Part shown: piece by piece, positions 40,756 through 56,910 of the stretch
Position numbering within the stretch: position 1 is the stretch's first letter
Layout of the letters: each line of letters opens with the position of its first letter
NCBI RefSeq assembly: GCF_014640195.1
Contig: NZ_BMGM01000005.1
Span: 62,001-126,000, forward strand
Length of the DNA stretch: 64,000 nt
Source of the DNA: Psychroflexus planctonicus
GTDB taxonomy: Bacteria > Bacteroidota > Bacteroidia > Flavobacteriales > Flavobacteriaceae
Direction of reading: 5' to 3'
Made by a program: the position numbers and the translations under genes
The notes under the pieces: generated by a model
Database searches by the model: none
The model's input: the letters and a program-made list of their open reading frames with translations, nothing else
Told to the model about the DNA's origin: nothing

Positions 40756-40828
40756 GGTGCCTTAGCTCAGTTGGTAGAGCAAAGGACTGAAAATCCTTGT
40801 GTCCCTGGTTCGATTCCTGGAGGCACCA
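40756..40828 (+). tRNA. tRNA-Phe (GAA)
   Basis: 73 nt. Acceptor GGTGCCT pairs with AGGCACC; anticodon loop CTGAAAA (anticodon GAA); T-arm CCTGG TTCGATT CCTGG; discriminator A; CCA not encoded. The 3' part and terminator are duplicated 383 nt downstream behind a GIY-YIG gene. Confidence 0.97.
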
Positions 40829-40878
40829 CACAATTGCCAAACCGCTTTCTTTTTGAGAGCGGTTTTTTTATTACTTTA
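40803..40878 (+). repeat. Direct repeat 1: tRNA-Phe 3' end plus terminator
   Basis: From CCCTGGTTC in the T-arm to ATTACTTTA after the terminator T-run. Copy 2 at 41186-41273 is the same except for a 16-nt hairpin replacing GATTC, one G to A change in the acceptor and one extra G in the terminator stem. Confidence 0.9.
40839..40870 (+). terminator. Terminator of tRNA-Phe
   Basis: AAACCGCT / AGCGGTTT stem followed by TTTTTTT; duplicated at about 41232-41266. Confidence 0.8.
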
Positions 40879-40894
40879 GTCAAAAGCTCTTCAT

Positions 40895-41137
40895 TTGGAA
40901 ACCCATTATCTCTATATTATTTTTAGTGAAAAAATCAATAAATTTTATGTGGGTGAATCTGAAAATCATAATCTAAGACTTAAGCTTCATAACCAACATT
41001 TCTTTAAAAAAGGATTTACTAAGGCTGCAAAGGGTTGGAGTTTGAAACTGAAATTTCCATGTGAGAGTAAACAGAAAGCTAAGAAGTTAGAGCGATTTAT
41101 CAAAAAAATGAAATCAAGAAAATTTATAGAAAAATGA
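40895..41137 (+). CDS. Small GIY-YIG nuclease-family protein, C-terminus frameshifted
   Basis: 80 residues, starting at TTG 40895 (THYLYIIFSEKINKFYVG is the GIY-YIG core). The stand-alone GIY-YIG family usually has about 90-100 residues. Here the frame stops at TGA 41135 right after an A5 run; with one more A it continues MIAQPDILEHIYRNKI to a stop at 41182-41184, just where the second tRNA repeat begins. That tail fits the family, so the gene is probably a recent -1 frameshift mutant (or sequencing slip). It lies between two copies of the tRNA-Phe 3' end and has no promoter of its own. Confidence 0.8.
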   Translation: METHYLYIIFSEKINKFYVGESENHNLRLKLHNQHFFKKGFTKAAKGWSLKLKFPCESKQKAKKLERFIKKMKSRKFIEK

Positions 41138-41185: not shown

Positions 41186-41273
41186 CCCTGGTTCCTCCGA
41201 TGCTTCGGAGCTGGAAGCACCACACAATTGCCAAACCGCTTTCTTTTTGAGAGCGGGTTTTTTTATTACTTTA
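41186..41273 (+). repeat. Direct repeat 2: displaced tRNA-Phe 3' end with hairpin insertion
   Basis: CCCTGGTTC, then hairpin CTCCGATGCTTCGGAG (41195-41210) in place of GATTC, then CTGGAAGCACCACAC and a copy of the terminator. Not a functional tRNA. Together with repeat 1 it frames the GIY-YIG gene. Confidence 0.9.
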
Positions 41274-56707: not shown

Positions 56708-56740
56708 CTCAAACCCCGAAGCGTCGGGGGAACTTTGGAC
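56708..56740 (-). pseudogene. tRNA-Asn 3' fragment interrupted by a 16-nt hairpin
   Basis: On the minus strand GTCCAAAGTTC, then CCCCGACGCTTCGGGG (56714-56729), then TTTGAG. The intact tRNA-Asn 97 nt upstream (minus direction) reads GTCCAAAGTTC GAGTC TTTGAG, so the hairpin replaces GAGTC. The flank just before (ACTGTTTTGAT) is only loosely like the anticodon arm. The rest of 56502-56836 has no gene. Confidence 0.75.
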
Positions 56741-56832: not shown

Positions 56833-56836
56833 TTTG

Positions 56837-56910
56837 CTCCCCCTCAAAGACTCGAACTTTGGACCCTCTGATTAACAGTCAGATGCTCTAACCAACTGAG
56901 CTAAGGGGGA
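56837..56910 (-). tRNA. tRNA-Asn (GTT)
   Basis: 74 nt on the minus strand. Acceptor TCCCCCT pairs with AGGGGGA; anticodon loop CTGTTAA (anticodon GTT); T-arm CAAAG TTCGAGT CTTTG; discriminator G. CCA not encoded. Confidence 0.97.

Follow-up and report, generated by a model that had tools for sequence, protein, structure and literature searches.

How does a transfer RNA (tRNA) gene come to be followed by a second copy of its own 3' end in which a small hairpin replaces part of the T-loop, and why does a nuclease frame lie between the two? The question is raised by a stretch of 64,000 nucleotides (nt) of the 3.11 Mb genome of the marine bacterium Psychroflexus planctonicus, of the family Flavobacteriaceae (contig NZ_BMGM01000005.1, C5:62001-126000; hereafter the window), in which two such hairpin-bearing copies occur, one behind tRNA-Phe and one behind tRNA-Asn. 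The reading that we favour, and which we consider about evenly poised between right and wrong, is that these copies belong to isotype-specific selfish cassettes that reside in tRNA genes, encode a GIY-YIG nuclease, would spread in a homing-like manner, and carry a hairpin that would interrupt the presumed cut site in the displaced copy.

Hairpin-bearing tRNA copies in the window and in relatives

The initial annotation had placed a 16-nt hairpin after GTTC in two different tRNA 3' fragments, and the sequence confirmed its positions, the bases replaced, and the differences between the two hairpins. On the plus strand, the intact tRNA-Phe(GAA) at 40756..40829 (ARAGORN; Rfam RF00005, 70.3 bits) is followed by a copy of its T-arm 5' strand (CCCTGGTTC, 41186..41194), the hairpin CTCCGATGCTTCGGAG (41195..41210) in the place of tRNA nt 57-61, and the displaced 3' end from nt 62 on (CTGGAAGCACCAC, 41211..41223, one mismatch). 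On the minus strand, the intact tRNA-Asn(GTT) at 56836..56910 (ARAGORN) is followed by a T-arm copy that matches in 11 of 11 bases (GTCCAAAGTTC, 56730..56740), the hairpin CCCCGACGCTTCGGGG (56714..56729) at the same nt 57-61, and a remnant of the 3' end that consists of TTTGAG only (56708..56713). The five bases lost are GATTC in the Phe copy and GAGTC in the Asn copy, and the two hairpins differ by a change of pair 2/15 and by one loop base. Both copies lie 3' of an intact tRNA gene for the same amino acid. Within the window, the 14-base word YCCGANGCTTCGGR is present twice, versus 0.00 times expected on basis of 100 shuffles, and an Rfam scan of the window returned three tRNAs and nothing else.

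Between the intact tRNA-Phe and the hairpin copy sits a GIY-YIG nuclease frame of the Phe lineage (40880..41134, plus strand; PF01541, E 2e-7), which was read by hand over two frames. A terminator behind the intact tRNA-Phe (40839..40869, plus strand) and a second near-copy of it behind the displaced 3' end (41233..41264, plus strand) were recognised by eye in the sequence. The ATG start of the relatives is absent from the window frame and the C-terminal tail has shifted to another frame; this nuclease copy is probably dead. No nuclease gene lies alongside the tRNA-Asn copy. The window copies are remnants: the Phe unit has decayed, and the Asn copy lacks a gene.

The earlier argument for a conserved structure was borne out by a pattern that is blind to the insert (CCTGGTTC-N(12-26)-CTGGAGGYACCAC), which in 397 family genomes gave 14 matches with 9 distinct inserts in 10 genomes, and of which the reversed control gave 0 matches in the same 397 genomes. 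The Phe copy of the window escapes this pattern owing to its single altered base. All 14 inserts form an end-to-end stem of at least 6 base pairs (bp), versus 215 of 200000 same-letter shuffles. Moreover, the stem varies by compensation: among 25 distinct 16-nt T-loop hairpins, C-G or T-A occurs at pair 1 and C-G, T-A, A-T, or T-G at pair 2, and the core CCGA/TCGG is nearly invariant, with one exception (T-G). These 25 were selected as 16-nt T-loop inserts with a stem of at least 5 bp, so that the pair counts lean towards structure; the filter cost no 16-nt row of the list of displaced copies, and the insert-blind search is free of this bias. The hairpin sequence differs among nuclease lineages (e.g., TCCCGCACGTGCGGGA, TCGCGAAGCTTCGCGA, and TCCGCCTGAGGCGGA). 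The list of displaced copies held 111 candidate 3' copies, of which 35 without a recognisable 5' flank, partly chance matches and partly other hairpin positions, were kept out of the hairpin counts; the insert of the 76 flanked copies measures 16 nt in 55, 18 nt in 8, 5 nt in 8 (with the T-loop intact), and another length in 5.

The exact hairpin word was found in 23 of 40 relatives and in 3 of 16 sampled genera, and a reversed control word gave a single match in each of 4 genomes. The fetched loci hold the word in 92 distinct contexts, two of them from other genera (contexts shorter than 60 nt were skipped); these comprise 43 T-arm copies, 2 that are one base off register, and 47 that lie elsewhere. 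A hairpin confined to tRNAs is ruled out by these 47, and the word is therefore common to other dispersed repeats. The concern that most hairpins might lie in unrelated places is thus justified for about half of the contexts (47, versus 43, or 45 with the off-register pair, in T-arm copies), but only 2 of the 47 follow GTTC in the orientation shown (L268 and L277, both near tRNA-Leu), because of which the combination of GTTC and hairpin is almost confined to tRNA copies. One other dispersed repeat, ccctgaaata[TCCCGANGCTTCGGGA]cagggtgac and variants, bears the hairpin word outside tRNAs in loci L004, L030, L074, L270, and L276.

Nuclease lineages, tRNA isotypes, and arrays

The cassette nuclease has a length of about 93 amino acids and carries a GIY-YIG domain (PF01541). 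In 30 nuclease sequences, Y5, S9, E19, R26, W46, and K68 are invariant, and Y16, G18, H30, and E64 are conserved in at least 90%. An AlphaFold model of the Phe type (predicted local distance difference test score 86.7) retrieved the folds of UPF0213, Slx1, I-TevI, and UvrC with Foldseek at a best E of 4.4e-3, with no match at E 0.001 or below. By sequence, the nearest solved structure is the UPF0213 member 1zg2 (8.7e-13), PHROGs returned a homing endonuclease profile (2.6e-8), and a comparison of five nuclease proteins with NCBIfam gave no model at its cut-off. The ratio of nonsynonymous to synonymous substitution rates was 0.07-0.27 in the 6 of 13 pairs that were not saturated, three of which compare three Maribacter loci with one another; in the unsaturated pairs the nuclease is under purifying selection. 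In the units that were read fully (L071, L070, and L318) the stretch from tRNA to copy is filled by the GIY-YIG frame, and no recombinase was found there, although a family search was not run on every unit.

Among 91 stretches comprising the gene and its downstream region with a tRNA upstream, a tRNA fragment could be aligned in 76 and none in 15. A stem of at least 5 bp is present in 68 of the 76 aligned inserts, a share that is not independent evidence as the score of the fragment aligner rewards stems. Of the 43 Phe units that could be aligned, 37 lack exactly nt 57-61 after nt 56; other nuclease lineages have other fixed positions. For example, tRNA-Asn is associated with two lineages, one with the hairpin after about nt 25 and the T-loop intact versus one with the hairpin in the T-loop; both stand behind a single tRNA in L116 and L120, where each gene is followed by its own kind of copy. 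In the Arg-TCT lineage and one Val lineage the hairpin replaces the anticodon arm, and in the other Val lineage GTT after nt 54 is lost (L227 and L234).

Labels that combined isotype and arm (T for nt 48-60, A for nt 40 or before) required 13 changes on a tree of 66 nucleases, with a minimum of 11, a shuffled mean of 28.4, and 0 of 200 shuffles as low; the T or A label alone required 5 changes. For this tree, 11 of the 76 units were dropped for a weak stem, more than 2 mismatches, or a short protein (six of them Phe), and L130 was added by hand. The Met units L095 and L111 are labelled differently on it, and the L095 copy carries both hairpins. Isotype alone (ten labels, including 'none') required 25 changes versus 60.6 after shuffling on 154 nucleases, i.e., those of 168 unique domains that had at least 58 amino acids. 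Because near-copies make labels cluster, the Asn and Val cases with two sites weigh most. Isotype and hairpin position follow the nuclease lineage, as would be expected if the hairpin interrupts a cut site. The proposal that the T-loop is the nuclease target therefore stands in part: the linked nuclease gene, the fixed place of the hairpin, and a position that tracks the lineage speak for a target at the hairpin site, but a universal T-loop target is rejected on account of lineages that are isotype-specific, several of which have the hairpin in the anticodon arm and leave the T-loop intact.

T-loop hairpin copies were found for 12 isotypes (Ala, Arg-TCT, Asn, Asp, Cys, Gly, Leu-CAA, Met, Phe, Pro, Tyr, and Val), and six isotypes, several of them among these 12, have copies whose hairpin lies no further along than nt 40. 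Within Psychroflexus, tRNA-Phe was matched in 25 of 27 genomes; the Phe locus of one genome of this genus, G015 (L057 and L071), has the same sequence as that of P. lacisalsi (L201). The 18 tRNA-Phe loci displayed from this genus comprise 6 with gene and hairpin copy, 4 with copies and no gene in view, 4 with neither, and 4 that are partial (L157 ends at the contig edge, L165 has a gene without a Phe copy, and L167 and L170 are remnants). In L165 (G009), what lies after the Phe-type nuclease gene behind tRNA-Phe is an inverted piece of the tRNA-Asn 3' end. The named genomes were searched by alignment with a Phe query only, which matched 141 stretches and led to 52 confirmed loci, and the named loci are therefore biased to the Phe lineage.

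Copies also occur as gene-less tandem arrays, of 7 Ala copies (91-93 bp spacing), 4 Arg-TCT copies, 6 Asn copies (about 146 bp spacing), and 5 Met hairpins (mostly 83 bp spacing), and complete units occur in tandem with a 370-bp period (L071). In L070:1980-4752 (G012), eight tandem GIY-YIG genes with a period of about 364 bp have Met-type tRNA pieces between them, which carry TCCGCCTNAGGCGGA hairpins at two other positions; no intact tRNA was called within this locus. At L073:1930-2050 (G024), one Ala copy carries long hairpins instead of the 16-nt one, adjoining a unit with the usual hairpin. Extra hairpin-bearing tRNA-Phe copies lie upstream of the intact tRNA in L319 (G327) and L218 (Maribacter PFL5); one of these upstream copies is a 5' fragment with the hairpin immediately before the anticodon arm, and a mirror-image version of the element may exist.

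Empty and occupied loci and the origin of the displaced 3' end

The tRNA stays intact at occupied loci, and the element is patchy: of 397 family genomes, 10 have the exact Phe hairpin copy, and there is one pair of congeners in which the locus is empty and occupied, respectively. In this pair, G157 has tRNA-Phe and its terminator only, and G355 has the gene and a hairpin copy between the same colinear flanks. A stretch of about 600 bp right after the hairpin copy of G355 (L318), with a cyclase-like gene that was named by eye, was not seen at that place in G157. A second colinear pair, G404 and G232, shows a length difference of 347-359 bp. A profile search detected no nuclease in G232, the gene-free counterpart, and a 99-bp DNA match (69.7%) in this genome extends into the place of the second gene of G404; G232 may keep a decayed remnant, and the pair would then represent one unit gained or lost. 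G197 was rejected as an empty congener, as it has the nuclease gene.

The terminators bear on which of the two 3' ends was there first. At three Maribacter loci, terminator A stands behind the intact tRNA, and the outermost hairpin copy has a terminator of type B (L220 and L221) or an A/B chimera (L223). In a survey in which a pattern made for both types matched 20 of 397 genomes and a nuclease motif was sought within 500 nt, terminator A was found behind the intact tRNA only where a nuclease motif follows (2 of 2; the gene of L328 is truncated), and the B stem only in loci free of the motif (14 of 14, from 9 genera); other stems occurred in three motif-free loci and one motif-bearing locus. 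From this distribution, the displaced copy in Maribacter is read as the old 3' end of the host, and the 3' end of the intact tRNA as having arrived with the element. L217 (Aequorivita) and L247 (Flavobacteriaceae) have a common terminator on the intact side and a different one behind the copy.

In genus g195, two occupied genomes differ from five nuclease-free ones in bases of the anticodon stem and of the acceptor 3' strand, and the paired acceptor 5' base differs too in the four genomes shown. In one of the five nuclease-free genomes (G446, L303), a displaced Phe 3' end stands bare. The base differences hint at replacement of the whole tRNA, but descent could also give them.

A proposed homing-like cassette, its rivals, and known systems

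A cassette of the favoured kind would consist of a tRNA 3' end with its terminator, the GIY-YIG gene, a brief repeat of the sequence immediately 5' of the putative cleavage site, and the hairpin. Its nuclease would cut one tRNA gene at one arm (the T-loop for Phe), and recombinational repair would copy the cassette in; the incoming cassette would supply a new 3' end and displace the old one, so that the tRNA would stay intact. The hairpin would mark the right end of the cassette and interrupt the target, by which the displaced copy would stay uncut. Tandem arrays, with or without the gene, would result from repeat-mediated amplification. Such a cassette would explain the patchiness, the specificity for lineage and site, the restored tRNA, the displaced host end, and the arrays. 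The broader claim, that these are widespread one-gene mobile elements of Bacteroidota that parasitise tRNA genes, with each lineage tuned to one tRNA and one arm, swapping in its own 3' end so that the host survives and using the hairpin on the displaced end as its working end, and with gene-less arrays that may be driven in trans, is advanced more tentatively, as a serious possibility that we would not yet expect to hold in full.

Several observations weigh against the homing-like cassette. Next to the gene, the T-arm of the intact tRNA still contains the presumed target in full (the target being presumed from the place of the hairpin), and a double-strand cutter would therefore cut its own host. 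A GIY-YIG domain with conserved motif residues and presence or absence of the gene at a colinear locus (one pair, G157/G355) were both found, as for homing endonucleases, but the occupied allele retains an uninterrupted target and only the displaced copy is interrupted; the element is therefore likened to, and not classed as, a free-standing GIY-YIG homing endonuclease. The same fact separates two parts of the initial suggestion that the hairpin marks or protects the displaced copy: it does mark a fixed place in the tRNA, but simple protection from recutting is at odds with the intact target next door. Moreover, both terminators are alike and host-like in the window, in g128, and in g242, and a comparison of 18 of the 20 named loci (the pattern missed the window, L163, and L212) gave a mean terminator identity of 0.88 within loci versus 0.66 between loci, which counts against the generality of an imported 3' end; alike terminators speak for local duplication or homogenisation rather than import. 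The terminator survey itself relied on a pattern built for A and B, on a motif within 500 nt as the mark of a nuclease, and on related genomes that are not independent. The tree suggested that the Phe nucleases of Psychroflexus were transferred horizontally, but this is unsupported, as the approximately unbiased test does not reject their monophyly (p 0.196), and no carrier was found when phage, plasmid, and viral collections were searched with the Phe type alone. Sparing of the intact tRNA may reflect inefficient self-cutting, single-strand specificity, or hairpin-dependent action; inefficient self-cutting of donor alleles by free-standing GIY-YIG enzymes is stated in PMC13096335.

It is mainly over why the intact tRNA escapes cutting that the rival readings differ. 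In one, which we regard as unlikely and yet worth retaining, the hairpin is an active end comparable to REP/RAYT or Ssn/NTS: the enzyme would bind or cut the single-stranded hairpin, units would move or multiply via single-stranded intermediates, and the intact tRNA would never be a target. The problem of self-cutting would then vanish, and the nearly invariant CCGA/TCGG core in the 25 distinct T-loop hairpins, the 6-bp stems with varying loops that the gene-less arrays L075, L077, L078, and L079 keep, and the dispersal of the hairpin word elsewhere in the genus all fit, but hairpin sequences differ by nuclease lineage and it is the tRNA position that tracks the lineage. A conflict at the level of RNA, in which the nuclease would cut a single kind of tRNA in its T-arm or anticodon arm and the tail with the hairpin would be transcribed behind it as an uncuttable decoy or antidote, would likewise make cutting of the own DNA unnecessary and would account for the specificity for isotype and arm and for a mimic that keeps both flanks of the site and loses the site alone. 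It is nevertheless very improbable, given that the nearest solved structures are those of UPF0213, Slx1, I-TevI, and UvrC, that known GIY-YIG enzymes act on DNA, that terminators separate tRNA, gene, and fragment, and that the terminator polarity in Maribacter is left unexplained. Type III toxin-antitoxin systems, in which an endoribonuclease toxin is bound by RNA repeats, were also considered, by comparison of the anatomy. We attach just as little probability to the hairpin copy being a bound and uncut operator that titrates or represses the nuclease; I-TevI sets a precedent (PMC2988022) and both flanks of the site are kept around a replaced middle, but the copy lies downstream of the gene and outside the promoter, tandem arrays excepted. 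That a generic dispersed palindrome would settle preferentially in T-loop DNA, with the nuclease genes as unrelated neighbours in decaying tRNA duplications, draws on the 47 of 92 word contexts outside tRNA copies, but is hard to sustain and the least probable given the insert-blind pattern, the unit alignment with its exact nt 57-61 replacement and other fixed positions in other lineages, and the lineage tree.

The homing-like cassette appears to represent a type of tRNA-gene-dwelling selfish element that has not been described before, and no description of the arrangement was found among the literature matches listed (the best 15 of 135, 10 of 52, 10 of 37, and 10 of 24 in the lists that were capped). 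It seems that the parasite consists of a single nuclease of about 93 amino acids and keeps the tRNA working. If true, this would provide an extensive natural collection of small GIY-YIG enzymes whose target sites can be read by isotype and arm, as well as a clean system for how a nuclease spares the intact target of its own host, and it would explain many of the small GIY-YIG genes behind tRNA genes in Bacteroidota genomes.

Among known systems, SegB of T-even phages is encoded by a GIY-YIG gene within a tRNA cluster, cuts DNA of the tRNA region, and drives tandem amplification of tRNA and nuclease gene, according to passages of PMC13096335 and PMC2988022. The likeness lies in a free-standing GIY-YIG gene among tRNA genes; SegB differs in that it is a phage gene, and these passages describe neither a hairpin-bearing displaced tRNA tail nor a series of isotypes by lineage for it. 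I-TevI binds an operator that resembles its homing site without the cleavage sequence and that is cut about 100-fold less well (PMC2988022). Common to both systems is a variant recognition site next to the nuclease gene that is, or would be, cut poorly. They differ in that the operator of I-TevI overlaps the promoter and its gene is intron-borne, and the passages on I-TevI mention no hairpin. The Ssn GIY-YIG single-strand nucleases of Neisseria are reportedly small proteins tied to the palindromic NTS repeat; we know of no link to tRNA for them. RAYT/REP systems link short dispersed hairpins to one enzyme gene, which encodes an HUH/Y1 transposase, unlike the GIY-YIG gene (PF01541) beside the tRNA-borne hairpins described here. 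The distal rtT repeats of Escherichia coli tyrT are tandem repeats that hold a tRNA 3' end behind the tRNA gene, to our knowledge with neither a T-loop hairpin nor a nuclease. Finally, tRNA genes are landing sites for integrase-borne elements, and phages and islands that integrate there restore the tRNA with their own 3' end and leave the former one downstream. The unit described here, which typically measures about 350-380 bp, differs from these in having room for the GIY-YIG gene alone, in carrying a hairpin at the junction, and in a position within the tRNA that goes with the nuclease lineage.
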